Source: Fimbriimonas ginsengisoli Gsoil 348
GTDB lineage: Bacteria > Armatimonadota > Fimbriimonadia > Fimbriimonadales > Fimbriimonadaceae
Assembly: GCF_000724625.1 (NCBI RefSeq)
Contig: NZ_CP007139.1
Span: 434,001-498,000 of the forward strand
Length of the DNA stretch: 64,000 nt
Direction: 5' to 3'
This document shows, one piece after another, positions 8,243-46,525 of this stretch. The notes beneath the pieces are model-generated. The model did not search any database and was not told the origin of the DNA. It worked only from the letters and a program-made list of their open reading frames with translations. The number at the start of each line of letters is the position of its first letter. Within the stretch, counting starts at the first letter, position 1. The translations under genes and the position numbers were made by a program.

Positions 8243-8908
8243 TCACTTTGCGGTGAGAGCCTTCTCTACTGCTTCTGCCACTTCCTTCATTTTTGGCTCA
8301 CCGCGCCATTGGGCGACGATCTGACCGTTCCGGTCGATAAGGAATAACGCGGGCACCGTTCTGACCTTATAAGCGGCCCAAGTTGGCTCCTTCAGGTCGT
8401 CGACCGCGATCGAATAGCTCACCGGCTTCTTCCTAAGAAAAGCCGGCACTTTCTTGGCGTCCTCATCGATGCTTATTCCGAGAACCACGAGTCCGCGATC
8501 CGAGTTCTTTTTATACAATTCATCGAGCGCCGGCATGCTCTTCACGCACGGTTTGCACCATGTCGCCCAGAAGTCTACGAGCATCACTTTTCCCTTGTTT
8601 GCTTCAAGGCTCACGGCCCGTCCGGTCATATCCACTGCTTTTAGCGCAGATGCGGGTCTCGGCAAAACCGGAGGCACGAATGCCTCGGGATCCTTCTTGA
8701 ACTCATCGATCTCCTTAGCGCTGCAGAAGTAGTAGTTGAGGCCCTTGTATCTTGCGCCGGCCGCCGGCTTTTCCTCCTCATGACCGGCGCCGTTCGCTTC
8801 GCATACCGCACAAGTCGCCTTCTTTGGCAAATCGGCCTTAGGGATGGCGACCGGCGAATCTTGATGACCGACGAACAAAGCGGCAAGAGTGAGGCTGGTT
8901 AGTAACAT
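8243..8908 (-). CDS. Secreted TlpA/ResA-like thioredoxin with N-terminal YHS-like metal domain
   Basis: A 221-residue exported thiol-disulfide oxidoreductase. A hydrophobic leader (MLLTSLTLAALFVG) is followed by CAVC (33-36) and GLNYYFCSAKEIDEFKKDP (about 56-74), resembling a YHS heavy-metal domain. A redoxin domain follows with active site WCKPC (117-121) and the late cis-Pro region VRTVPALFLIDRNG. ATG 8908 is chosen because an upstream in-frame ATG (8947) would overlap the preceding gene and lacks a leader. It is the third gene after an ArsR regulator and a damaged beta-barrel gene, which suggests redox control of metal-exposed cysteines in the periplasm. Confidence 0.85.
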   Translation of the reverse strand: MLLTSLTLAALFVGHQDSPVAIPKADLPKKATCAVCEANGAGHEEEKPAAGARYKGLNYYFCSAKEIDEFKKDPEAFVPPVLPRPASALKAVDMTGRAVSLEANKGKVMLVDFWATWCKPCVKSMPALDELYKKNSDRGLVVLGISIDEDAKKVPAFLRKKPVSYSIAVDDLKEPTWAAYKVRTVPALFLIDRNGQIVAQWRGEPKMKEVAEAVEKALTAK

Positions 8909-8918
8909 GGGATTAGTG

Positions 8919-9602
8919 CTAGAAAGAAAAGCCGATACTAATGCCAACGCGCCGCATTTTGATCAGCATGATGCTCACGTTTGTGCTTGGTAGCTTGTAG
9001 GTGAGCAAAAGGTGCGAATTTCGGCCGTCGTTCATTCCCAGCAGATCCCACTGGGAAGCGAGCTGCACGTTGACACCAAATGGGAAAAGGAGTCTTCGCT
9101 CCCATTCGGAATAACTGACCCCAACATAAGGGCCTAGTTTGTAGCGTGGTAGTCCCTTGGCAAACGTGACGAAGTAAGCCTGCTTGTGCGGCGGCGAGAA
9201 AATCCGGTCGCTCGAGGTGCCTAGCGACACCAACGGTGTCCTCTCGGTCTCGGGCGTGACGATCCAGTTCGCTACGGGGTTGAACTCGTGGACGCCAGGA
9301 TTCCACTCGACGCCCGCTTGGAACCTCGGTGTTACTCGGTAAAAAAGATTGGCGCGGTACCGCGGCCGATCTGCATTCGTGTCTACGTAGCGAAGCGTTA
9401 AGTTCCATTTGCTTGCAATGTCCCCCGAACCGAGGAACTTTCCCTCACCGGGTCACCCAGTTCACGTGGGGACGGCGAGGGGGCGATTCGGCGGAAGCTG
9501 ACCCGGATCCTTGAGGCCAGGCGGTCGCTCTTGGGCGAGCGCGGTCATCGATAGCGACGCAATCGCAGCCATGGCAATCAACCGGAAATGATTCCAGATC
9601 AC
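8919..9602 (-). pseudogene. Outer-membrane beta-barrel-like protein gene with two in-frame TGA codons
   Basis: Starting at GTG 9602, which overlaps the ArsR stop as GTGA, the frame encodes a signal peptide (FRLIAMAAIASLSMTALAQ) and then a Pro-rich segment. TGA follows at 9462-9464 and again at 9453-9455, after which the same frame continues for about 177 codons. That part has the alternating pattern of a small outer-membrane barrel (KWNLTLRYVD, YRANLFYRVTPRFQAGVEW, SIGFSF at the C-terminus). Between the two stops another frame reads HVNWVTR without a stop, so two compensating indels are an alternative to two nonsense mutations. The family was not recognised. Confidence 0.65.
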
Positions 9603-11507: not shown

Positions 11508-14500
11508 TTAAGGCCTCTCTTCTCCCGGATCGGACTCAGTTCGACTGCTTTCGCGTCCGCGAAAAGTCTTGTCGAGCCAGCGGACGAAGTCGTCCACGTA
11601 GGTGTGCATGATCGGAATGTCGAAGAGGCTGAGTATCGTGCCCACGAGCAGCCCGCCCACGACGGCGACCGCCAGCGGCTGATAGGCGTCGAGACCGGTC
11701 TTAGGCGCGATGGCTACGGGCAGCATAACGATCATCGTGATGCCGGAGGTCATCAGGATCGGACGCAGCCTATCCGGGCACGCCCGCAAAATCGCCTCGT
11801 CGCGGGGGACGCCTTGCTCGCGGTACTTCATGATCAGGTCGACCATGAGGACCGCGGTCGTGATGTCCATTCCGGTGAGCACGATGATTCCGAGTACGGA
11901 AACGGTCGAGAAGGCGGCGTGAGCGAGCCACAGCGCGGTGAAGACGCCGGCAAGCTCGAGAGGAAGCGAGGCGATCATCTGCAGAGGCTGTAGGAATCCC
12001 CGGAACTGCACTACGAGGACGAGATACATGAGGGCCAGCGAAAGGCCGAGGCTCTGAACCAATCGGCGCATGCTGTCCATCATTTGGGTCATATCGCCCC
12101 GTACCTCCACCCCGTAGCCGGGTGGAAAATTGACCGCATCTACGCCAAGCTTCGGATTCCCGCCGTAGGCGTTGCTCACGAGGTCCATGACCGTATCCAT
12201 GGATGGCGGGTGCCCGATTCGGTAATAGCCGTTGACTCCCACCACTCGCCGCAGACCGTCGTGCTCGATAGCGGTCGGCGCCGCCGTGCGAACGATCGAC
12301 GCCACCGAATGAAGTGGTATTTGGCGTCCATCGGGAGTCGAGAGATAGAGACCCGCCAAGTCGGCTGCAGTCTTCCGGTCGGCTTCGTCGTACCGCACGA
12401 GAATCGTGTTCTGGCGCTGGTTAGGCAGACGGTAAAACTCGTTGGTTAAGCCTCCGTGCAAGGCGTAATAAGCTTGCTCGGCGATGCTCGCCGGGGAAAG
12501 GCCGACCTCAGCCGCCCGCTGAAGGTCAACCTGGACTCGGTACTCGGGTTGGCCGATCGTCCAAGTCTGGGCCGGTTGGTACATCTCGCCCTTCATTCGA
12601 TCCGCCACGTGGAGAACCTCGTGGCCGAGACGGTCGAGTACCGAAAGCTCGGGGCCGTGGATGTTAATTTGGATCGGGGCTTGCGCCGCCGCCATGACGT
12701 CGGAGCCCATCTCCTTGATCTGCAACCGGCGAATGCCGGGAATAGTCGCCATCGCCTCGCGATGAATTGCATCCATCACTTGCCAGATCGTGCGTCCACG
12801 TTCATCCTTGTCGCCAAAGGTGAGCATCATCGACGCTCCGTTCACCTGCGGCATCTGGTAGCCGGTGAACGAAGGATTCCAACTCTCGAACATGGATTCG
12901 GCGCCGAGTTCGATGCTAGCCTTTTGAAGTTCCGGGTGCTTCAGCATGATCGCCTCCAGCCGCTTCACCGCCGCTTGGGTTCCCTCGAAGGAAGTCCCGG
13001 GTTGCATCTCCAAAAATCCGTTCGCCTGACCGGTGTCCGCCAGCGGCATCATCTCGCTGCCGATGAAGTAATAGAAGGTGAAGCCAATCGCGAGGGTCGC
13101 GAGCACCCTGGTGAGGTTGGCAAACCGATGCTTCAGCGACCATTTGATCGCGCGGGCATACCCTTTCTCCAAGCGATCCAAGCCGCGCTGGACCGGGTCG
13201 AGGAGGAGGTAGAGGAGCGCTAAACCGGGGCGCCGGCGGTCAGAGTCCCTCGCCGACTCCGGTCGCAAGAGGTTCGCGCAAAGCAAGGCCGTCAGCGTGA
13301 ACGACACGAGCATGGAGGCGATGAGACCGAAGATGAGGGGCCACACAAGCTCGACGAACATGAGCCCCACGAGCCCGCCCGAGAAGAGGAGCGGTACGAG
13401 GGCGAGGACGATCATCACCGTCGAGGCGATCACCGCCAACCGGACCTCGGCGATGCCGTCAATGGTCGCTTGCTTAGGGGTTTTGCCCAGACGCAGGTGA
13501 CGCTCGACGGCGTGGATGTCGATGATGCTGTCATCGACCAAACGTCCGATCGAGAGCAGCAGGCCAATAAGGGTGCCGCTGTTGAACGTCATCCCAAACG
13601 GCATCATCATCAGGATCGCCAGGGCGAGCGACGTCGGGAGCGTCACGAGGGCGATAACGGTCCCCCGCCACTCCCCAAGAAAGAGGAGAAGCGCGAGGGC
13701 GGTTAGGCCGATCGCGATGGCCAGCTCGTGCCAAACATTGTCGAAGAGGATGCCGACGAAGTGGGCGTTGTCGTACGCGACCTCGAAGTGGAGTCCGGGA
13801 TTCTCCTGCTCCAGGCGCCGCACGACCGCCATCACCTCCGGCACGACTTGCGCCGAGCTTGCTCCCGGATTCTGGACGACCGACACCTCGACCGAGGGCG
13901 ACACCAAGCCCGACTTTCCCGGCTCGTGACTGAGGTAGTCGTAGCCGCTCCGCCGCTCCCAATACCCGTCGACGACGCGGGCGACGTCTCGGACGTAAAC
14001 GACCTTCTGCGGGACCGCCGCGGGGGTCGGCGGCGCTACGGCCGGGGGTGGAGAGGCTCCTCCCATGCCGCCCATACCGGCCGGAGAACTTCCTGCAGGA
14101 TTTGGCAACGAGGCTCCGCCCTTAGTGGCGACCGGATACTCGAGAACATCGCGAGCGGATCGCGCGCGGGTATCGACGCGGACAATTCCTTCTCCCGATC
14201 CGTTCGTTAGCGTTCCCGCGGAGGCGCTCTGGTTGGCTCGGTCGATGGCGTTTCGCACGTCGAGGACGGAGATGCCGTATCCGGACAGCTTGGCACGGTC
14301 GACGAGCACCTGGAGCTGGCGACGGAAACCGCCGAACGGCACGACCGAATAGACGTCGCGCACTCCTTTCAGCCGCCTCACGACCTCGTTATCCGCGAAT
14401 TCCCGCACCCGCGCTGGGTCCCACCCTTTGGCTGCATCGCCCCGAAGGGAAAGGGAAAGAATGGGCAGATTAAGGGGGTCGATGGGGATTACGAACGACG

Positions 14501-14921
14501 GTTTGAGGTTCGCGCCCGTCGACGGAAGCTGCGCCTGAACCACGTTCATCAGGGCCTGGACGTCCGTCAGAGCCCGTTGCATGTTCGTCCCGTATGGGAA
14601 CTCCAAGGTAACGATGGAGAAACCGTCCTGTGAGTTTGAACGGATGTAGCGCAGCCCCTTGACGTTTACCAGCCCTTCCTCGATCGGCTTCGAGATCTGG
14701 AGCTCCATCTCCTGCGAAGAGAGCCCAGGCATCATCGTAACGACGCCGATCATGGGACTCTCGACATACGGAGCAAACCGGCGCGGAATCATGCTCGTCA
14801 CCGCCAGCCAGGCGGCGAGAACCACCGCCACAAAGAATGCGATCACCGCGTACGGATGCTCGATGGACCACCGGTGAATAAGGTGCAGTGGATTTTCGCG
14901 GGGAGCGGAGGGGCCGCTCAC
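11508..14921 (-). CDS. RND efflux pump, inner-membrane transporter subunit
   Basis: An AcrB/CusA-superfamily protein of 1137 residues. A first TM helix (YAVIAFFVAVVLAAWLAV) is followed by the periplasmic porter domain and RND core segments such as GRLVDDSIIDIHAVERHLRLGK and, in the second repeat, VLGIIVLTGMDITTAVLMVD. The GTG start at 14921 overlaps the stop of the adaptor gene (GTGA), so translation is probably coupled. An insertion rich in Gly, Pro and Ala (about residues 280-315) lies in the first porter half. Operon order is Cys-rich protein, TolC, adaptor, RND, DUF4382 lipoprotein. The cupredoxin domain on the adaptor and nearby copper genes suggest metal efflux, but the sequence alone does not separate metal from drug substrates. 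Confidence 0.92.
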   Translation of the reverse strand: MSGPSAPRENPLHLIHRWSIEHPYAVIAFFVAVVLAAWLAVTSMIPRRFAPYVESPMIGVVTMMPGLSSQEMELQISKPIEEGLVNVKGLRYIRSNSQDGFSIVTLEFPYGTNMQRALTDVQALMNVVQAQLPSTGANLKPSFVIPIDPLNLPILSLSLRGDAAKGWDPARVREFADNEVVRRLKGVRDVYSVVPFGGFRRQLQVLVDRAKLSGYGISVLDVRNAIDRANQSASAGTLTNGSGEGIVRVDTRARSARDVLEYPVATKGGASLPNPAGSSPAGMGGMGGASPPPAVAPPTPAAVPQKVVYVRDVARVVDGYWERRSGYDYLSHEPGKSGLVSPSVEVSVVQNPGASSAQVVPEVMAVVRRLEQENPGLHFEVAYDNAHFVGILFDNVWHELAIAIGLTALALLLFLGEWRGTVIALVTLPTSLALAILMMMPFGMTFNSGTLIGLLLSIGRLVDDSIIDIHAVERHLRLGKTPKQATIDGIAEVRLAVIASTVMIVLALVPLLFSGGLVGLMFVELVWPLIFGLIASMLVSFTLTALLCANLLRPESARDSDRRRPGLALLYLLLDPVQRGLDRLEKGYARAIKWSLKHRFANLTRVLATLAIGFTFYYFIGSEMMPLADTGQANGFLEMQPGTSFEGTQAAVKRLEAIMLKHPELQKASIELGAESMFESWNPSFTGYQMPQVNGASMMLTFGDKDERGRTIWQVMDAIHREAMATIPGIRRLQIKEMGSDVMAAAQAPIQINIHGPELSVLDRLGHEVLHVADRMKGEMYQPAQTWTIGQPEYRVQVDLQRAAEVGLSPASIAEQAYYALHGGLTNEFYRLPNQRQNTILVRYDEADRKTAADLAGLYLSTPDGRQIPLHSVASIVRTAAPTAIEHDGLRRVVGVNGYYRIGHPPSMDTVMDLVSNAYGGNPKLGVDAVNFPPGYGVEVRGDMTQMMDSMRRLVQSLGLSLALMYLVLVVQFRGFLQPLQMIASLPLELAGVFTALWLAHAAFSTVSVLGIIVLTGMDITTAVLMVDLIMKYREQGVPRDEAILRACPDRLRPILMTSGITMIVMLPVAIAPKTGLDAYQPLAVAVVGGLLVGTILSLFDIPIMHTYVDDFVRWLDKTFRGRESSRTESDPGEERP

Positions 14922-17305
14922 TGAACGATCACCTTCCCCTTGAGCATGTTCATCCCACAGGCGTAGTTCAATTCCCCTTTTGCCGTGGCCGGAAGATCGA
15001 TAGTAACCGGCACGTTTAGAGGCAGATCTCGAGTAATTCCGAGCGAGGGAAACACCACTTGCTTCGCGCACGTGTTGTCCGTCTTTCGCACGAACGTGAC
15101 CCGGTGAGGCGTGGGGCCGGTGAGGGTCAGACTGGCCGGATCGAAGCCGCTCTCCGTGATCGAAATTTCGAGAGTCTTCGTGGCAACGTCCGGGCCACCC
15201 ATGCCGGATGCGGTAACCGTCTGGCCACTCGACAACCCGGCGGCTCCCTCCACGACCACCTTGTCCGCGACCGCGAGGCCCGACCGGATCGCCGTCTGAC
15301 CCGCTTGCTCTTCGCCGACGACGACGCTCCTTCGTTCGACCGTGTAGGTTCCCGCTTGACCAGCTACCGGGCGGGCGAGCCACACATAGGTATCCGTTCG
15401 AGATGCCTGAATGGCCCCGCCCGGGGACGGGCCCGCTTGGATCGCCGCTGTTGGAACGGTGATCTGTGACCCCGGGAGACCCACCGGGATCTCCATATTC
15501 ACGAACTGTCCCGGAAGGAACGAGCGATCGCGATTGGGCAATAGCGCCTCCACGATTCCGGTACGGGATACCGGATCGACCGCAGGCGAAATCGATGTCA
15601 CACGCGTGGCAAGTGGACGTTCGCTCCCACCGCGATGCCGAATTGCCACGAGGCTCCCGATCCTCACTCTCGTCAGGTCCGCCTCGGGAACGTTCGCTTG
15701 GACACGGACCGGGCTGATCTGGGCGACGCGTAGAATCGCCTGTCCGGGCGTCACCAGCGTGCCCGGACTGATCAAGCGCTGAGTTACGACTCCGTCGATC
15801 GCCGCCCGAATCTCCGCATAACCCGCTTGCGCCGTAACCCCCTGAAGCCCGGCCCGGGCTTGGCGGACTCCCGCCGCGGCCTGACCGATCTTCTTGTGCG
15901 CGGACGCCGCTTCGGCCTTCGCCGTCTGCACGTGCGCGTGGTGCGCCATGAGCGCGGATTTCGCCTGGTCGACCTTTCGACTCGCCGCTTCGATGCCGGC
16001 CTCCGACTTCCTAAGTTCCGCCTCCGCCGCACGGACTTTGGCTTCGGCGCTACGAACTCCCTCGGTAGCTTGGCGCAAAGCCGCGTCGCTCTTTGAGGCT
16101 TCGGCCCGCTCCTTGTCGTACTCGTCGCGCGAAACGGCGCCTGCCGCGAAGAGCTTCGACTCTCGATCGAGCTCCTGGGACCAGTAACGTCGATCCGCTT
16201 GGGCCGAAGATTGGCGCGCCTGCGCATCCGCCACATCGGCGCGCGCCGCCGTCAAGTTCGCGGCAGCGGCATCCCTTTCCTGCCGGGTGGCCGCCAAGTT
16301 CGCCCGCGTCTCCTCGACCGCGCCTTGGAATTGCCCGAGCTCCGACTCGGCCTGGTGGATCATCGCCTGCGCCTGCCGGTAGTCCGCCTCCGCGACGCCG
16401 ACCCCCTCGCGGGCGCTCTCGACCATCGCGCTTTGCTGGGCGACCTGCGGCGCAAGCTGCGACGTGTCGAGGCGAGCGATGACTTCGCCCCTGTGCACGG
16501 CCGTTCCGGCGTAGGCGGGCATCCAGACGATGACCCCGCTGGTTCGGGCATTTACATCCTGTTCCTCCATTCCGACGGCTTGTCCCGAGTATTTCACGGT
16601 AGCCGAAAACGGCCGAAGCTCCGCGGTGGCGAGCGTAACCGGCGTTACCCCTTCCGGAGGGGGCATGTCCATGCTCATGGTTTGCGCCTCGATCGGGGTC
16701 ATCGATCCGCTCCGTCGGAGGTGGTTCACGGCGTACAAGGCTCCGTAAAGCACGAGCCCAAGCACTACCAGGGCCGCGACAACCTGTCGGGTGGCCAAGC
16801 CTTTGAGCTCAACCCGTTGTCCCGTCTGCCGCATACGAAGGACGACGAACAATACGAGCGCGAGTCCGACGGCCCATGGCCAAAGAGTGAAAACGGAACG
16901 GCCCCCATCGGCGGCAGTCGCGGTCGACTTCCCTGTTTCCATCGGAATGACGGCGGTGCCGCTGCCGAGGGGTCCCGTTACGGCGATTCGGGCTTCATAC
17001 CCGCCTGCCATTGAGAACGACTGGGTTATGCGGTAGTGCCCCGGTGTACCGGAAGGAGCGGCGACTTGCTCTCGTTCTCCCATCGCCATGTTCGGCATTT
17101 GCGCAATGGCCCGAATTTGGGCTCCCTCGACCGGCTTGCCGGAGGCATCCGTGACGAACATGTCCAAGGTCGCCTTGCCGACCGGCAAAACATTCGGATC
17201 CGTCGTGATCTCCACCGTGTAGGGCCCCGCCCGCCCGGTCAGCGAAAGAGCCATCGCCGGCAGGAGAAATACGAATACCAAGAACACCCACCGCACGGTC
17301 GTCAC
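14918..17305 (-). CDS. RND periplasmic adaptor fused to YtkA/FixH-like and cupredoxin-like domains
   Basis: A 795-residue adaptor of unusual architecture. The N-terminus is a leader plus a YtkA/FixH-like domain (PYTVEITTDPNVLPVGKATLD..., about 27-125), then two TM helices (about 138-158 and 172-192). A HlyD/CusB adaptor core follows: MSMDMPPPEG, a barrel/lipoyl half (GVIVWMPAYAGTAVHRGEVI), a long Ala/Glu-rich coiled coil (about 280-490), the second half-motif (AAIDGVVTQRLISPGTLV) and a beta-barrel. The last 90 residues resemble a cupredoxin (ISITESGFDPASLTLTGPTP; NTCAKQVVF; YACGMNMLKGKVIV), with Cys/Met candidates for copper. Its GTG overlaps the TolC stop and its stop overlaps the RND start. 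Confidence 0.9.
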   Translation of the reverse strand: MTTVRWVFLVFVFLLPAMALSLTGRAGPYTVEITTDPNVLPVGKATLDMFVTDASGKPVEGAQIRAIAQMPNMAMGEREQVAAPSGTPGHYRITQSFSMAGGYEARIAVTGPLGSGTAVIPMETGKSTATAADGGRSVFTLWPWAVGLALVLFVVLRMRQTGQRVELKGLATRQVVAALVVLGLVLYGALYAVNHLRRSGSMTPIEAQTMSMDMPPPEGVTPVTLATAELRPFSATVKYSGQAVGMEEQDVNARTSGVIVWMPAYAGTAVHRGEVIARLDTSQLAPQVAQQSAMVESAREGVGVAEADYRQAQAMIHQAESELGQFQGAVEETRANLAATRQERDAAAANLTAARADVADAQARQSSAQADRRYWSQELDRESKLFAAGAVSRDEYDKERAEASKSDAALRQATEGVRSAEAKVRAAEAELRKSEAGIEAASRKVDQAKSALMAHHAHVQTAKAEAASAHKKIGQAAAGVRQARAGLQGVTAQAGYAEIRAAIDGVVTQRLISPGTLVTPGQAILRVAQISPVRVQANVPEADLTRVRIGSLVAIRHRGGSERPLATRVTSISPAVDPVSRTGIVEALLPNRDRSFLPGQFVNMEIPVGLPGSQITVPTAAIQAGPSPGGAIQASRTDTYVWLARPVAGQAGTYTVERRSVVVGEEQAGQTAIRSGLAVADKVVVEGAAGLSSGQTVTASGMGGPDVATKTLEISITESGFDPASLTLTGPTPHRVTFVRKTDNTCAKQVVFPSLGITRDLPLNVPVTIDLPATAKGELNYACGMNMLKGKVIVQ

Positions 17306-18642
17306 TTGACTTCCTCCACGAGTGGCAGGCCAGCCGCGCGAAGCAGGCGGACGTAAGCGATTTGACGTTCGTAGAGCGCCTGGGCAAGGTCTCGCCGGGC
17401 CTGCGTCAGTGCCTGCATCGCGTCCAAAGGCTCGACGAGAATCGCTTTTCCGTTCGCGTAGCGAAGAGCCGCCACCTCGTAAGCAGAGGTGGCCGCTACC
17501 ACCGATGACTTTGCCGAAGCGACGTTAGCGTTCGCAGTGTCGAAATCGATGTACGACTCCCGTACCTCGCGTTGCACCGTGAGCTCGATCTGGCGAACAT
17601 TAGCTCTCTCGCGCTCCCTTATCGACCGAGCCCGGGAGACATCGGCCCGGCGCTGGCCGCCGTCGAACAGCGGGATGCTGATGGTCAGACCAATGCTGGC
17701 GCCCCGGCTCCCCGCCTGATTGGCCGCGTCGGCCATTGCGATTCCGTACACCTGCGGTTTTTGAGACCCCTCCAACGCCCTTACGTCCGCCTCGGATGCG
17801 CGCAGCCTGGCTCTTGCGGCCAAGATCGACCCGCGCCCAGAGAGCGCTTTGGTTAGGTAGCCGGCGAGTTCTCCACGACTTATCTCCCGGTCAAGCGGAT
17901 CCGTAAGAGCGACGGCGGTATCCAGATCAATCCCCATCGCCTCTTTCAGCATGAGCAGCGACTTCTTCCGCTCGCCAAGGGCGGCGGTAAGCGCACGTTG
18001 ACTTTGCGCGAGCTCCGATTCCGATCTCTGCACCGAAGCCTCGATACCTTTGCCTGCTTCGAACTGAGCGCGGGTGGTGCGGACCAGCTCGGAACCCGCT
18101 TCGACGCGAGCCTGGGCGGCGGAAGCCGTTTCCGCAGCCAAAAGCGCTCTCAAGTAGGCATCTACCGCTTTCAGAGATGCTTCGGCCTGAGTCTCCCGCA
18201 GGTCGTATTGGGCCGCGGCGGCGATTTCTTGAACCGATCCGACCTGGGCGTTGAGCAATCCACCCGTGAGTAACGGGATCATCAGCATGACGTTGGCGTC
18301 CAATAACCCTCCCGAGGGCGCCAGCAAAGCATAGGCCGGGTCGACTCGCGGCGCTGAGGGATAGATGGCCCCGTAACTTCCCGCCGTGGCGAAGCCGTTT
18401 AGGGACGCGCTTGGCCGAAGTCGGGATTTTGCCGAACGAATCGCCTCCCGTGCCGCCTCCAGATCCGCCTGAGCGCCCACAACGGCCGGGTTATTCTTCG
18501 CCGCCGCTTCTACGGCCTGCGCCATAGACAAGGGATGGCCAGATTCCGAACGGGTCTGGGCTTGAGCAAAGGAAATGAGAGTGCCGAAAAGGGCCCAAGC
18601 CAGCGGCGTTGCCCATCTCGAATGTACGGTTGTGGTGGAAAT
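17302..18642 (-). CDS. TolC-family outer-membrane efflux channel (start codon non-standard or damaged)
   Basis: The outer-membrane duct of the RND system. Two TolC repeats are seen: LSMAQAVEAAAKNNPAVVGAQADLEAAREAIRSA at the start and ANVASAKSSVVAATSAYEVAALRYANGKAIL near the end. The first standard start codons in frame are TTG 18537 and ATG 18531, but they would cut off an obvious signal peptide (WATPLAWALFGTLISFAQAQ) encoded just upstream in the same frame. That frame opens after a TGA at 18658-18660 and contains no ATG, GTG or TTG before the peptide. An ATT at 18642 has GAGG 6 nt upstream and is the best candidate; an indel beside an out-of-frame ATG near 18625 is the alternative. Its stop overlaps the adaptor start. 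Confidence 0.85.
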   Translation of the reverse strand: MSTTTVHSRWATPLAWALFGTLISFAQAQTRSESGHPLSMAQAVEAAAKNNPAVVGAQADLEAAREAIRSAKSRLRPSASLNGFATAGSYGAIYPSAPRVDPAYALLAPSGGLLDANVMLMIPLLTGGLLNAQVGSVQEIAAAAQYDLRETQAEASLKAVDAYLRALLAAETASAAQARVEAGSELVRTTRAQFEAGKGIEASVQRSESELAQSQRALTAALGERKKSLLMLKEAMGIDLDTAVALTDPLDREISRGELAGYLTKALSGRGSILAARARLRASEADVRALEGSQKPQVYGIAMADAANQAGSRGASIGLTISIPLFDGGQRRADVSRARSIRERERANVRQIELTVQREVRESYIDFDTANANVASAKSSVVAATSAYEVAALRYANGKAILVEPLDAMQALTQARRDLAQALYERQIAYVRLLRAAGLPLVEEVK

Positions 18643-19601: not shown

Positions 19602-21686
19602 CTAGGCGTGGATGAACCGCCGCTCGGATGTCCGAAGCATAACGGCATTGACGGCGACAAAGATCGAGGAAAGTGACATCAAGAGCGCGGATACCTCCGG
19701 CCGAAGCGACCAGCCTAGGTTCGAGTAGAAGACTCCCGCCGCGATGGGGATGGCGGCGAGGTTGTAGACGCTGGCCCAGGCCAGGTTCTGCTTCATTTTT
19801 CGCACCGTCGCCTTGCTGAGGATGATGGCGTTGACGGCATCTAACGGGTCCGATTTCATGAGGACGATGTCGGCGGCCTGGATTGCCACGTCCGTTCCAG
19901 CTCCGATCGCGACGCCGATGTTGGCCTGAGCAAGAGCCGGCGCGTCGTTGATGCCGTCGCCTACCATGGCCACGAACCGTCCTTCACCTTGAAGCTCCTT
20001 CACCTTGGCGGCTTTCTCTTCGGGTCGCACAGCGGCGAAGTAACGTGTTATGCCGACCTGCTCGGAGACCGCCTTGGCCGTCGACTCGTTGTCACCGGTC
20101 ATCAGCACTACCTCGACGCCGCGCGACCGCATTTCTTCCACGAACCGCTTCGAGGTGGCTTTCACGGGATCGGCCGCGGCGACGACCCCAAGAACCCGGT
20201 TACCGACCGCGACGAAGATTGTCGTACGTGCCTTGCCCGCAAGCTGCGCTTCGAGTGGCTCAAGGGCCGAAATGTCCAGGCCGGCTTCGGCTAGAAGAGC
20301 CTTCTTACCCACCAGCGCCGTCTCGCCGTTGACCTGCCCACGAAGCCCCGCTCCCGCGACGTTTTCGAATGACACTGCCTCTGGAATCGTCCCACGAGTT
20401 TTCGCCTCCTCCAGGATGGCGATCGCGAGCGGGTGGCTCGATGCCCGCTCGAGGGCGGCGGCCACCAAGACCAACTCATTCGCATCCACGCCGGCCAGCG
20501 GCAAGATCTCGGTAACCCTTGGCTTGCCCTCGGTGAGCGTCCCCGTCTTATCGACGGCCACTACGTCGACCTGCGCAGTCTGCTCCAAGGGCACCGCATC
20601 TTTGATCAGAACGTTGTGCTTCGCCCCCAGGCCGATACCAACCGAAACAGCGGTTGGAGTTGCGAGGCCCAGCGCATCCGGGCATGCGATGACGACTGCA
20701 GAGATGGCAAACGTAAGAGCGGTGATGAAACCGGCGCCTGATCCGTAGCGCCAAGCGAGAAACGTGATCACCCCAGAGCCCACGGCGAGGACGACCAAAT
20801 ACCCTGCGGCCCGGTCGGCAAGTCGCTGCCCCGGCGCCTTCGATTCTTGAGCCGCTTGAACGAGCTTCGTGATCTGAGCCAGAACCGTATCGCCACCGAC
20901 TTTAGTGGCGCGGTAGGTCAAGCTTCCAGAGGTATTCACCGAGCCTCCCACGAGCAAGTCTCCAATGGACTTCTCGACGGGGATGCTCTCCCCTGTCACG
21001 AGCGACTCGTCCACGGAAGACTTCCCGCTGACGACTTCGCCGTCGACCGGCACCTTTTGCCCTGGCTTCACTCGCAGCACATCGCCGACCTGGACCGAAC
21101 TGGTCGGGACCTCATGCTCAGTGTCACCGCGCACCACCAGCGCCATCGGTGGGACTAGGTCGAAGAGGGCGCGAAGGGCGTCGGACGTTCCCCGGCGAGA
21201 CTTCATCTCCATCCAGTGCCCGAAGAGCACGAAAGTGACCAGCATCGCCGCCGCTTCAAAGTACACCTCAGAGCCTGGGATGAGGACGAGATATAAACTC
21301 GCGAGATAGGATGCGAGAACTCCGGTGGCGATCAACACCGACATGTCGAGCTTTCGCTCTCGAATGGCTTCATAAGCTCCCGCGATGAAGATCCAGCCCG
21401 AGTAAAACACTACCGGCGTGGCGAGGACCAGCATCACGATGTGTCGTAAGTGCCCTTCCATGGGCAGCCACATCGGTAGACCCGGCACGTGGCCCGAGAT
21501 GATCAGAAGCGGAATGGAAAGAACGAGCGCCACCAAGAACCGGCGGCGCATATCGACTTCCATCATCTTCGCGGCGGCGGTATCCGAAACGGCCCCGTGG
21601 TGATGCCCGTGTGCGTGCACCATCCCCACGTGCTCGTGAGTCTCGGACCTGCTGCCCTGAGATGACGTCGACCTCATGTTGCACAC
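19602..21686 (-). CDS. P1B-type heavy-metal ATPase with CPD transmembrane motif and His-rich N-terminus
   Basis: A 694-residue inner-membrane cation pump. There is no HMA domain; the N-terminus is His-rich ([15 protein letters not shown], about 17-31), as in CopB-like ATPases. Core motifs: TGES (231-234), CPD (335-337, in [14 protein letters not shown]), DKTGT (379-383), SSHPLA and [10 protein letters not shown]. The metal-binding motif is CPD, where CopA has CPC and CopB has CPH, so specificity cannot be read across. The start may be GTG 21686 or ATG 21677. Two tiny membrane-protein genes follow within a few bases. It sits between the two operons headed by the Cys-rich paralogues. Confidence 0.9.
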
Positions 21687-21978: not shown

Positions 21979-23697
21979 TTACATGCCTCCCATCCCCGGC
22001 ATGGAGTGCTCGCCGGACATTTCGTGCTTCATGCGGCTCGGACGGACGCGAAGGAAGACGCCCAGCGTCACCGGGTTCTTGCCGTAGAAGGGCTCCAGGC
22101 TAGACGGGAACGAGTAGAGGCCCGCATACGCGCCGATGCCGATGTCGAACCCGTTCCGCGACGCCACGTTGTGCACTCCGCCGAAGATGAGCTTATTGAT
22201 GTTGTAGCTGCCGGGTGGCACACCGACCAGCTCGTCTTTGTCGACGTTCTCGTAACGGGCGAAGATCGACGTGGGACCGTGGAAAAGGGTTGCCTCGAGC
22301 AAGTAGGCGTTCGAGTCCTGTCCTGCCTTGATATTTCGTCCGAACGCTCCCGTGACGGACAGGTTGTCGCCGTTGGCCAGGGGGCGGCTGTATATTCCCG
22401 CAAAGGTGATGCGGTGTTGATCGACACCCGGCTCCTTGCTCTCCGGCGAGTTGAGATATCCGTACGCCGCGTTGAACGACAGATCCCGGCTCGGATTATA
22501 GGTGATCCGCGCGGAGGCGGAATTCAGGCTGATCGGGTCGGGCGAGTATCGGTTCTCGTCCGGCTCGTGGCCATTGAAGGCGCTCGCTTCGAGTTGCCAT
22601 TTGTCCGTATTAACGCCCGCCGTCACGACACCCCAAGAGATATGGGTGGCGTCGAACCAGTGGTGCGTAATCGGGGCTTCCGGATTCTCCATCCCGCTCG
22701 GGCGGTGAAGATACATCGGTCCGCCGAAGGCCGGTTCGCCCACCGGCCCACCGTACACAAACCACCGCATGCCGCTCTTAACCGGATGACTGTAGGAGAC
22801 GGTGAGCTCGGAAATCAGGTCATGCGGATGTTGCCGGTCGACCAAGGGCTGGCCGTGGGCGGTCTCGCCGGTCTGGAAGAGGTTCGGATATCCCCGTTGA
22901 CCATTAATAATCGGGTCGGCGGAGACCATGAGGTTCAAGCCGAGCGTCCCGCCGCCGGTCTCCCGACGCGCCATGAGCATCGGCATCGAATTCGAGAAGA
23001 ATTGACTGTCGCCCCGCTTTCCTCCCGCGTCGGTGTAGTTCAGGGTGGCCAGTCCCATTAGCGAGAGGTCGTATCGCCCCTGCTTGTTGAGCGGCTTCAT
23101 GAACATCGGCGAGCTCTCGGGAAGCCAGCTCGTTCCGGAACCCTCGCGAGACATCGACCACGGGCCGAGCTTGCCCATCATGCCGCCCATTTCGTCGCCG
23201 TGCTCCATCCCCGCCATGTGCTGGTGGTCCATCTCCTTGCCTTCGCGCTGCGACCATTCGGCAAGGGTAAGCGGTTTGGCCTCTTTGTACTGCGGATTCT
23301 CCGCGACGTAGCGTCGGAACCCTTCTTCCGAGACGAAGGCGCGTGACCACCGGCTGCAAAACGCGTGGTCGCCCTCGACCTCGAGAAAGACGAGGCCGGG
23401 CAGGTTGCTTGTCCAATTCCCTTTGTCGTCGGACGTGAGCACTAAAGACTGTTTTGGATCATCCGTCGGCGCGCGAACCTCGGCTTTACCCGGGTACTGC
23501 GCCGATAAGTCGCGGGCGCACAGCATGCACCTCACGGGGTACGTCTTAGCGCCGATTTTCACCGTGACAAGCCGAGAGCCGGTCGCCTCGACCGGTATCG
23601 GAATGCCGCAGTGCGCGCAGTTCGGCATCTTCTGAGCCGACGCAACGGCCGCGGCGAGCAAAGCCGCGGCCACTCCTATCCCCTTGATTGTTCTCAT
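21979..23697 (-). CDS. Outer-membrane beta-barrel with N-terminal Cys-pair domain and Met/His-rich linkers
   Basis: A 572-residue exported protein. After a signal peptide (ALLAAAVASAQ) comes a domain with C27-x2-C30, C57-x2-C60 and C114, which aligns with the whole mature protein of the gene immediately upstream. A Met/His-rich linker follows (MDHQHMAGMEHGDEMGGMM, about 156-174), then about 380 residues of beta-barrel with GPWSMSREGSGTSWLPESSP and DRQHPHDLISELTVSYSHP. The end is again Met/His-rich (RMKHEMSGEHSMPGMGGM). I recognise this barrel type as an uncharacterised family often seen with copper-resistance genes. Its ATG overlaps the upstream TAA (TAATG), implying coupled translation. Inferred role: copper handling at the outer membrane. 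Confidence 0.8.
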   Translation of the reverse strand: MRTIKGIGVAAALLAAAVASAQKMPNCAHCGIPIPVEATGSRLVTVKIGAKTYPVRCMLCARDLSAQYPGKAEVRAPTDDPKQSLVLTSDDKGNWTSNLPGLVFLEVEGDHAFCSRWSRAFVSEEGFRRYVAENPQYKEAKPLTLAEWSQREGKEMDHQHMAGMEHGDEMGGMMGKLGPWSMSREGSGTSWLPESSPMFMKPLNKQGRYDLSLMGLATLNYTDAGGKRGDSQFFSNSMPMLMARRETGGGTLGLNLMVSADPIINGQRGYPNLFQTGETAHGQPLVDRQHPHDLISELTVSYSHPVKSGMRWFVYGGPVGEPAFGGPMYLHRPSGMENPEAPITHHWFDATHISWGVVTAGVNTDKWQLEASAFNGHEPDENRYSPDPISLNSASARITYNPSRDLSFNAAYGYLNSPESKEPGVDQHRITFAGIYSRPLANGDNLSVTGAFGRNIKAGQDSNAYLLEATLFHGPTSIFARYENVDKDELVGVPPGSYNINKLIFGGVHNVASRNGFDIGIGAYAGLYSFPSSLEPFYGKNPVTLGVFLRVRPSRMKHEMSGEHSMPGMGGM

Positions 23698-24206
23698 TAG
23701 TTTTTCAGCGCCGCCGCTACCATTTCGGTCAGGGACATAGACTTCGATTTCTCCGCTCCGTTCCCCTTCACGTACTTATCGAATCCTTCTTTGGCGTGGA
23801 AGGCGCGGGAGAGCTTTGCGCACTTATCGTGGCTGTCGAAGTCGTTCAGGAACACTACTCCGCTCTCAGGGACCAGCTTCCCTTCGCTCTCCTTGACCGC
23901 GGCCCACTTGCCCGCCGTCCGCGTTAGCAGCACCGGCTTCCCCTTAGTCTCCGATGGGGCGTAGACGACGAGGTCGCCGTCGTATTTCTTGGAGTCGGCG
24001 ATGGCGCAATAGACGCAGCGGTACTCGATCTTCTTTCTTCCGAATCGTAGAACGACCTCGTTGTCCTGGGTCTTCGTCCCTTGCACCACCTTCATCCCGC
24101 AAAGCGGGCATGGGACCTCGTGTACACGAACCATATTCGCCGGCACGATGGCGGCTCCGGTCATGACGAAGAGTCCAATGGCGAGAATCCTAATTGTTTT
24201 ATTCAT
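23697..24206 (-). CDS. Secreted NosL-like Cys-pair protein
   Basis: A 169-residue protein with signal peptide (IRILAIGLFVMTGAAIVPA). CPLCGM (33-38) resembles the CxxCGM metal site of NosL-type Cu(I) chaperones; a second pair RCVYCA (64, 67) and C129 in SHDKCAKLSRAF follow. The pattern CxxCG-x(25-28)-CxxCA...HxxC-x3-SRAFxxxEGFxxYV is shared with the N-terminal domain of the barrel protein encoded next. ATG 24206 has GGAG 7 nt upstream. Inferred role: periplasmic copper chaperone or reductase partner of the barrel. NosL membership is suggestive only. Confidence 0.7.
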   Translation of the reverse strand: MNKTIRILAIGLFVMTGAAIVPANMVRVHEVPCPLCGMKVVQGTKTQDNEVVLRFGRKKIEYRCVYCAIADSKKYDGDLVVYAPSETKGKPVLLTRTAGKWAAVKESEGKLVPESGVVFLNDFDSHDKCAKLSRAFHAKEGFDKYVKGNGAEKSKSMSLTEMVAAALKN

Positions 24207-24234: not shown

Positions 24235-24387
24235 TCACCGGGTTCCCCGCTTCTTCTTTGCCGCGCAGCTTCCACAGCCGCAGTCAGGCTTGCCACCGCC
24301 GATTCCCAGCCCCAGGCTGCGCAACATGTGTCTTCCGATGAAGAAGATGCAGAGCGCCAGGACCGTACCGACGATGACGATTTCCAT
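24235..24387 (-). CDS. 50-residue single-TM protein with DCGCGSC tail (FeoB-associated Cys-rich type)
   Basis: ATG 24387 overlaps the stop of the preceding gene as TGATG, and the frame ends at TGA 24235-24237. The product is one TM helix (MEIVIVGTVLALCIFFIGRH), a Gly-rich hinge and DCGCGSCAAKKKRGTR. This resembles the small FeoB-associated Cys-rich membrane proteins (helix, then CxCxxC, then basic tail), but no feoB is present in the window. Position between secreted Cys-pair proteins suggests transfer of a soft metal at the membrane face. Confidence 0.7.
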   Translation of the reverse strand: MEIVIVGTVLALCIFFIGRHMLRSLGLGIGGGKPDCGCGSCAAKKKRGTR

Positions 24388-25676
24388 CACTTGACCTCGA
24401 ACACGAACGGTAGGGTGACGACCTTGCCGTGGCGCTGGAACTGGGCCCAGGCTTTGTAGATTCCCGGCTTCGGAAATCGGGCGGTGAACCGGACTTCGCC
24501 TTGGCGAATGAGCTTAGCGGCCGCCGCGTCCTCGGCCGGGTGACTGTGGACGAACGCTTGTCCGTCTTGATGGATGATCATGAGGTGGCCGTGGGCGCCG
24601 AGGTACGGTTCCAGATCGTTCACCGGCTGTCCGGTCGCCTCATCGCGGAGATGGAAGCTGACGACTGTGGTCTTGCCGATCGGGATCGGCGTCTCGGTCG
24701 GCTGGAACTCGGCGACGATCCCGTCGACGGCGACCTTTCCTGTCGTGGGGGCCAATTTCTTGCTCCAGTTCCCGCCCGGCCCGGCGACGTGGACGGAGGT
24801 AGAGATCACCTGCGACCCCTTATCTTTGGGGGCGACGTCGGCAAAGACCAGGTAATCGCCTCCCGCAGGAAAAGTCTGGGGCAACCGGAATGAGCCGTCG
24901 GCCTGCTGCTCCGGATGCTCGTGGGCGAACCAACCCAGGTCTTTGCTGACTACGATCAGGTGGATCAGCTTCGTATGCGCCACGTCGAAATCGCGGACGA
25001 TTTGGTCCGTCTTCGTGTCTTTGATTTCTAGATGGAGGTCGATCGGCTGACCGGCGCGCGCGTCCTTCGGAAAGTCAAGCATCTCGACCGAATACGGCTT
25101 CGGCTTGGCGATGCTTCGTCGAGCTTCCGCGTCGTTCACATTAACGCTGAAGGAGGTCCGAAGCGGCTTCTCACCGGGCGGGGTGAGCAAGAGACCGACC
25201 TGGAAAGTTCCCCCGTGGGGGAAGAAGAGCTCTACGCCGTAGTCTCCGGGAACGCCCTCGCTGTGGATTTTTGGCCGAACCACCGGCATCCCGGGCATGC
25301 TTGGCATCGTCACCGTCGCTCTCGGTTGAGCGTTCGGAACTCCCCGCTTTCCTTCGATTGGATCGCTGTGGGTCGTGTCGGAAAGCCGAAACTCAACGTC
25401 GACCTGCTCGCCGGCGAAGAGCCCCTCTTCCGGCACGCGAAGCTCGACGAGATACTTTCCGACTTGCGCCTTGGTGGCCGGCTTCGCCGGCTTGGCCGGG
25501 CGGCAAGCAGAGGCGGCGACCCCACACTTGCACACGGCGCATTTCTTGGCCAAGTCCGATTTGGACTTCACGACGATCTTACGATCGCAGTGAACGCAAA
25601 GAAACGACGACGTTTGGGCGCGAGCGCCGGCTACGGCGAGTACGAGCGCGAAGCTCGATAAAAACGGTTTGAACAA
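24387..25676 (-). CDS. Secreted multi-domain YtkA/FixH-like protein with N-terminal Cys cluster
   Basis: A 429-residue exported protein. The signal peptide (FLSSFALVLAVAGARA) is followed by a Cys cluster resembling a zinc ribbon: C27, C30, C46, C49, C51, C58. Three immunoglobulin-like YtkA/FixH-type domains follow. The first contains MPSMPGMPVVRPK, the second HLIVVSKDLGWFAHEHPE, the third HLMIIHQDGQAFVHSHP; the Met and His motifs are candidate Cu(I)/Cu(II) ligands. The start is TTG 25676 with GGAG 7 nt upstream. Similar proteins are commonly seen next to copper genes, but a biochemical role is not known to me. It is second in its operon. Confidence 0.75.
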   Translation of the reverse strand: MFKPFLSSFALVLAVAGARAQTSSFLCVHCDRKIVVKSKSDLAKKCAVCKCGVAASACRPAKPAKPATKAQVGKYLVELRVPEEGLFAGEQVDVEFRLSDTTHSDPIEGKRGVPNAQPRATVTMPSMPGMPVVRPKIHSEGVPGDYGVELFFPHGGTFQVGLLLTPPGEKPLRTSFSVNVNDAEARRSIAKPKPYSVEMLDFPKDARAGQPIDLHLEIKDTKTDQIVRDFDVAHTKLIHLIVVSKDLGWFAHEHPEQQADGSFRLPQTFPAGGDYLVFADVAPKDKGSQVISTSVHVAGPGGNWSKKLAPTTGKVAVDGIVAEFQPTETPIPIGKTTVVSFHLRDEATGQPVNDLEPYLGAHGHLMIIHQDGQAFVHSHPAEDAAAAKLIRQGEVRFTARFPKPGIYKAWAQFQRHGKVVTLPFVFEVK

Positions 25677-25738: not shown

Positions 25739-26197
25739 TTACACACGGGCAACGGGAGGTGCGCGGCCGAGATCCAACGAGAACTCGGACGAAACGGGCG
25801 GACCGGAGTCGATCCCAAAGATGCCGGGTTCGGCGAAGCTTTCCTTCACCGCGAGAATAAATCGCGATCTGGCCGGCGTTGCGACAGGCAAGTGCTCAAG
25901 GGCGACGGCCTCAACGGAAGCTCGGGCGCTGGGCGTGGAAGTCAGCTCACACTGGCAGGAGTCGACCCGGCTCGACATCGCATTGTGATGCGCCGCGGGT
26001 TTGGTCGACTTGCAGCAAGCGCCTTTGGCCTTCGCTTGCGGCTCGCAGCAGGCCATTTTGCAACTTGCCTTCGGCTTTGCAACCGGTGCCGGCATGGCAC
26101 AAGCCATCGTCCCGCTCGCTCGTATCGGCAAAGCGGCCAACACTAAGGCGAGCGAGCAGATAAACCTGACTATCAGAGCCGTCTTCCCTCGCACCAC
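25739..26197 (-). CDS. Small Cys-rich secreted protein, paralogue 2 (heads the Cys-pair / barrel operon)
   Basis: A 152-residue protein with leader VRFICSLALVLAALPIRAS and cysteines C33, C46, C50-C51, C61-C62, C81 and C83. It shares with the protein at 18708 the N-terminus (VVRxxxAL), the identical C-x12-C-x3-CC spacing, a CC pair, a CxC pair and the tail EPGIFGIDSGPP...GRAPP. Unlike paralogue 1 it lacks a long second hydrophobic stretch. The start is GTG 26197 or the adjacent GTG 26194. It is transcribed divergently from the SGNH hydrolase and 62 bp ahead of the YtkA-like gene. Inferred role: periplasmic metal sequestration or delivery. Confidence 0.75.
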   Translation of the reverse strand: MVRGKTALIVRFICSLALVLAALPIRASGTMACAMPAPVAKPKASCKMACCEPQAKAKGACCKSTKPAAHHNAMSSRVDSCQCELTSTPSARASVEAVALEHLPVATPARSRFILAVKESFAEPGIFGIDSGPPVSSEFSLDLGRAPPVARV

Positions 26198-46410: not shown

Positions 46411-46525
46411 CCTCCAGCCCAGGGTTCCGCTTCGCTGCACCCTGGGCTGGAGGATTTCGCGCCTTCAGCGCTGGCTCAGGATCAGGGGCAGGCTGCCCCT
46501 GATACCCACGGGCGGGCCGCCCGTG
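46411..46525. repeat. Cluster of three hairpins after the ABC exporter
   Basis: First: CCTCCAGCCCAGGGT (46411-46425) pairs with ACCCTGGGCTGGAGG (46439-46453), 15 perfect bp. Second: TCAGGGGCA (46482-46490) with TGCCCCTGA (46494-46502). Third: CACGGGCGG (46507-46515) with CCGCCCGTG (46517-46525), followed by CTAC, which holds the TAG of the lipoprotein gene. Probable bidirectional terminator region. Positions 46301-46410 hold nothing else recognised. Confidence 0.8.

Follow-up and report, generated by a model that had tools for sequence, protein, structure and literature searches.

A predicted NosL/MerB-fold domain, free and tethered to a porin-like barrel, in a copper-export gene block of Fimbriimonas ginsengisoli

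The window, the 64,000-nucleotide stretch of the Fimbriimonas ginsengisoli Gsoil 348 genome analysed here, carries two adjacent reverse-strand genes for versions of one cysteine-rich domain, one as a free protein (P0001) and one tethered to a predicted barrel (P0002). Both genes sit in a copper-export gene block and their neighbours are copper genes, with the following features.

11508..14930 (-), RND permease, start uncertain, scoring below the CusA/CzcA cut-off
14918..17305 (-), efflux adaptor with an N-terminal YtkA domain and a C-terminal cupredoxin domain
17302..18531 (-), outer-membrane efflux protein of the OEP/TolC type
19602..21686 (-), copper-type P1B ATPase, TIGR01511 over the cut-off, with CPD replacing CPC
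21979..23697 (-), fusion protein P0002, 572 aa: signal-like N-terminus, tethered NosL/MerB-like domain, His/Met-rich linker and porin-like barrel
22039..23100 (-), porin-like barrel of P0002, residues ~200-553, with His 290, 292, 331, 345, 346 and 352 conserved across phyla
23101..23247 (-), His/Met-rich linker of P0002, residues ~151-199, its sequence beginning MDHQHMAGMEHGDEMGGMMG
23248..23631 (-), tethered domain of P0002, residues ~23-150, with C27/C30/C57/C60/C114 and a CARD motif
23697..24206 (-), free domain P0001, 169 aa: hydrophobic signal-like N-terminus, NosL/MerB-like fold, C33/C36/C64/C67/C129
24236..24387 (-), Cys-rich membrane peptide, 50 aa, FeoB-associated-like, below the Pfam cut-off
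24387..25676 (-), YtkA-like protein, 429 aa, with an N-terminal CxxC; a conserved upstream gene of the block in relatives
25739..26197 (-), Cys-rich protein, 152 aa, also upstream in many relatives

The P1B ATPase encodes its CPD motif as TGC CCG GAT, while the other matched ATPases with a readable motif at these loci have CPC; its YNxxxxP and MxxSS motifs are retained. Elsewhere in the window, a thioredoxin-like protein is encoded at 8243-8947 (-), preceded by a YHS match below the cut-off, and an Acido-Lenti-1 RNA lies at 46418-46472 (+), with 37.2 bits against a gathering score of 37.

Direct reading of both proteins upheld the initial annotation in its details: the five cysteines of each stand where it had placed them (C33, C36, C64, C67 and C129 in P0001; C27, C30, C57, C60 and C114 in P0002), with no further cysteine in either protein; CxxCG, CxxCA and HxxC-x3-SRAFxxxEGFxxYV are common to the two; and the genes overlap at TAATG, sharing one base at position 23697. 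P0001 aligns pairwise to residues 23-150 of P0002 with 33% identity (58.5 bits, E 7e-15), and profile-profile comparison of the free with the tethered domain gives 99.6% probability at E 2e-24, results that together rule out chance resemblance. Searched at E <= 1, the genome (a single contig of 5.23 Mb) holds these two copies of the domain only. That they are the same domain, as had been claimed, is thus correct as a statement of homology, but the tree separates free and tethered copies into two clades with support of 100/100 each, that is, into two ancient subfamilies. The fused copy of the window falls in the tethered clade, beside 20 other copies; with the two copies in two old clades, recent tandem duplication in this genome is ruled out.

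Searching 291 Armatimonadota genomes (part of the phylum, not all of it) with the tethered profile returned 44 carriers, 40 of which have both forms. The remaining four comprise one genome with the tethered form only, at a contig end (L088), and three with divergent free-type copies only; genomes showing a single form, which the initial annotation had proposed to look for, are 4 of 44, next to the 40 with both. All 41 pairs found on the same contig lie on one strand with at most 77 bases between the genes, which overlap often, the larger overlap sizes hinging on start codon choice. No match to the domain was obtained among plasmids, among viral contigs, with the tethered profile in 247 genomes sampled from the phylum of locus L007, or with the free profile in 299 genomes sampled from the phylum of L004 and 150 from that of L008. 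These non-Armatimonadota sets are samples to which either the free or the tethered profile was applied, and within that scope the empty searches speak against a mobile or widespread domain. Free/tethered pairing in some 40 genomes is what would be expected of partners, and suggests that the free copy may hand metal over to the tethered one.

The nature of the tether varies. In all of the other paired loci that were examined, a His/Met-rich protein of ~500 residues that, judged by its sequence, is apparently helical bears the tethered domain at its C-terminus, and the gene that follows encodes a protein mostly of 215-260 residues that appears barrel-like, usually ending in phenylalanine as outer-membrane barrels do. 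The protein at L059:7617-9185 (-), in its residues 1-340, and its relatives are conserved, apparently helical and His/Met-rich, and have zero Pfam/NCBIfam matches. The window genome alone among the 291 carries the domain on a barrel, at the N-terminus of the barrel protein, and a search with one relative's sequence found no helical tether in it. The side-by-side arrangement of free and tethered copies noted at the outset is accordingly conserved in relatives, but its barrel fusion is not, the tether there being the helical protein. Most relatives manage without a barrel fusion, and delivery to this particular channel is therefore not the conserved function.

The barrel that had been assigned to P0002 was modelled as a porin-like barrel, matching solved porins with Z ~23 over ~300 residues and thus falling within the general porin fold; this assignment and the conserved free/tethered pairing are both supported. 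Its six conserved histidines are present in at least 94% of 19 aligned sequences. The closest barrel among the searched genome contigs is in a Fimbriimonadaceae MAG, and homologues in other phyla occur on plasmids of Pontibacter and Sphingobium, with P-type metal ATPases nearby. Orthologues elsewhere have other leaders, some of them rich in His and Met, others consisting of YtkA domains or of a Cys-rich region in doubled form, and the barrels at L039-L048, L078, L115 and L116 form a single porin-like family with interchangeable periplasmic leaders. P0002, and orthologues with it, have the CopB/PcoB trait of a (modelled) outer-membrane barrel with a His/Met-rich N-terminal leader, and P0002 gives no match to Pfam CopB up to E 1.

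On the evidence of its predicted structure, the P0001 domain is a NosL/MerB-fold module. The closest fold match of the free-copy model is MerB (VIA Z 11.7 over 117 residues, rmsd 3.0), followed by NosL (Z ~6, VIA ranks 9-13), and Foldseek aligns the model to a MerB mutant at E 1.6e-4. Built on a two-row alignment, this model has a mean pLDDT of 71.7, with most blocks from residue 50 onward at ~80-91 and a weak block at 121-130. The fusion model was built on an alignment of nine rows, in one of which the second half of the free protein is misplaced, and its N-terminal domain is for this reason weaker than its barrel. The order of strands and helices in that domain is the same as in the free copy, and this together with homology to the free copy assigns the tethered copy to the NosL/MerB-like fold. 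Different folds for the two copies, the outcome that would have told against the initial annotation, were thus not seen, the models being of one fold family. Its interpretation is supported in part, namely by the shared fold family, the conserved cysteines, the metal context and the channel-borne copy; the NosL/MerB fold, and the different protein that serves as tether in relatives, it had not recognised.

Sequence libraries give neither P0001 nor P0002 an outright name, their Pfam, NCBIfam and PDB sequence matches all being sub-threshold. The Pfam family most often matched, below its cut-off, is MerB (PF03243), which 9 of 17 members touch in the free form and 3 of 21 in the tethered form; P0001 itself reaches 16.5 bits, below the curated threshold of 27. 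Four matches resulted when 121 Armatimonadota genomes were searched with PF03243, three to the present domain and one to a thioredoxin-MerB protein whose MerB score exceeds the cut-off. Its cysteines repeat the CxxC...CxxC layout, and it aligns to the domain at E 2e-7. This last protein, at L111 (G253), joins thioredoxin and a MerB-like domain in one chain and bridges MerB and the P0001/P0002 domain. The NosL model (PF05573) matches neither P0001 nor P0002, finds nothing above cut-off in their genome, and is touched by one of the 17 free members (E 0.006). Profile alignment places C64, C67 and C129 of P0001 onto Cys96, Asp99 and Cys159 of MerB and onto C102, S105 and C165 of MerB2. The catalytic triad of MerB is thus incomplete, both of its cysteines being matched and C67 occupying the position of Asp99.

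The cysteines are conserved in the homologues, where their lack would have told against the initial annotation: in the 46 free copies a single cell is missing (C64 in 45 of 46, the others in 46 of 46), and in the tethered copies all five are present in 43 of 43. Invariant in the tethered form specifically are M24, H29, R62, D63, H111 and W117. The first four cysteines are laid out as a CPxCG knuckle, a beta hairpin and a CxxC at a helix start, and sequence and secondary structure both fit a TRASH-like treble clef, with its knuckle CxxC and helix-start CxxC. From this layout we infer that the four CxxC cysteines may form one metal site, which all five thiols may share; the set combines the treble-clef-like CxxC + CxxC with the second thiol ligand of MerB. 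In the protein at L087:7354-8076 (+), which has a free-type domain, the C-terminal part after it contains a CPVT...FCCPEC stretch resembling YHS/TRASH by eye. The NosL/MerB fold has been derived from duplicated TRASH-like treble clefs (PMC4999995), and the present domain may inform this proposed descent of NosL and MerB, because the four cysteines of the finger seem to be kept within the larger fold.

As the best of the explanations considered, we tentatively read the pair as a periplasmic metal-thiolate module that relays Cu(I) to the outer membrane, and put the chance of this at slightly below even. The P1B ATPase would pump Cu(I) into the periplasm, where the free protein would take it up and dock on its tethered relative; from the tethered copy the ion would pass along the His/Met-rich linker to the conserved channel-loop histidines, and so leave the cell. 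The tether would be the porin-like barrel in the window genome, and in relatives the helical His/Met-rich protein together with the small barrel-like one. A hand-over of metal is suggested by the conserved pairing, the conserved thiols and two precedents, NosL being a Cu(I) chaperone (PMC6530538) and copper efflux requiring the His-containing N-terminal region of PcoB (PMC12509749). Cu(I) as the metal, the direction of transfer, docking of free on tethered copy, and efflux over storage or uptake are what we infer from these observations. Copper is favoured by the P1B ATPase above its copper-subfamily cut-off, by the cupredoxin/YtkA adaptor, by the metal ATPases near barrel homologues on plasmids, and by a D99S variant of MerB that binds Cu(II) (PMC8261052). 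Counting against copper, MerB2, in which Ser is the native residue 99, fails to bind Cu(II) (PMC8261052); the score of the RND permease below the CusA/CzcA cut-off likewise speaks against copper efflux.

CxxC + CxxC fits a structural zinc site equally well, which weighs against a site for transported metal and gives rise to the main rival: zinc held by the two motifs would make the domain an adaptor, the copies binding each other and bringing periplasmic parts to the barrel without metal transfer. The knuckle, hairpin and helix-start CxxC match a treble clef, and the reported descent of the fold from TRASH-like treble clefs (PMC4999995) agrees with this, but structural zinc alone would not need the fifth cysteine, conserved in both forms at the position of MerB C159, the gene context is one of copper handling, and we regard the adaptor as unlikely. 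Rather improbable to us is simple sequestration, in which both copies would soak up metal in the periplasm, the tethered one from an anchored position, without directed hand-over. Five invariant thiols, His/Met-rich linkers and the Cys-rich leaders on barrel orthologues do look like binding capacity, yet the fact that two subfamilies are kept side by side in 40 genomes suggests distinct roles, and M24, H29, R62, D63, H111 and W117, invariant in the tethered form specifically, would be superfluous in a simple sink.

Redox work by the CxxC pairs, for example keeping the thiols of periplasmic copper sites reduced, would accord with the two motifs per domain and with the fusion of a related domain to thioredoxin in another Armatimonadota genome; the fold, however, is NosL/MerB-like and not thioredoxin-like, and the motifs are in a treble-clef arrangement, making a thiol-disulfide protein very improbable. 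An organomercurial lyase or mercury resistance protein has in its favour the MerB fold match and the conservation of both mercury-binding cysteine positions. Against it stand the signal-like N-termini and copper neighbours, and we hold it to be improbable in the extreme because by profile alignment a cysteine takes the place of catalytic Asp99 and because the genome has no MerA over the cut-off, its two flavoprotein homologues scoring below.

Returning to the copper relay, its fullest form, in which a NosL/MerB-fold domain with a complete four-cysteine treble-clef site works as a free/tethered pair passing copper to an outer-membrane channel, is a doubtful proposition taken as a whole. If true, such a domain would be the intermediate to be expected from the published proposal that MerB arose from a TRASH-like finger. 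Copper exit from the periplasm via outer-membrane proteins such as PcoB has been described as unclear (PMC12509749), and with a conserved soluble/tethered pair that is in one case fused straight to a channel, hand-over from chaperone to channel becomes testable.

Among known systems, PcoB and CopB resemble P0002 in having an outer-membrane barrel, a His/Met-rich N-terminal leader and copper genes nearby, but the P0002 model resembles general porins such as OmpF/OmpK36 whereas the PcoB barrel has 12 strands (PMC9210255), and P0002 differs further in its lack of a Pfam CopB match and in having a folded Cys domain as leader. The TRASH/YHS treble clefs, the proposed ancestor of NosL and MerB (PMC4999995), share the layout of knuckle and helix-start cysteines; here, in contrast, the four cysteines lie within a complete domain of NosL/MerB size, the second half of which adds another conserved Cys. 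NosL (PF05573) is alike in fold (Z ~6) and in being periplasmic, and the CPLCGM motif here resembles the CXXCXM of clade II NosL (PMC6530538), but the present domain has no visible lipobox and adds another CxxC as well as one more conserved Cys. MerB (PF03243) shares the fold (Z 11.7), both of the cysteine positions that bind mercury and the C-terminal helix region; the present domain departs from MerB by its Cys at the Asp99 position, its extra N-terminal CxxC, its sub-cut-off Pfam score and its setting in a copper gene block.
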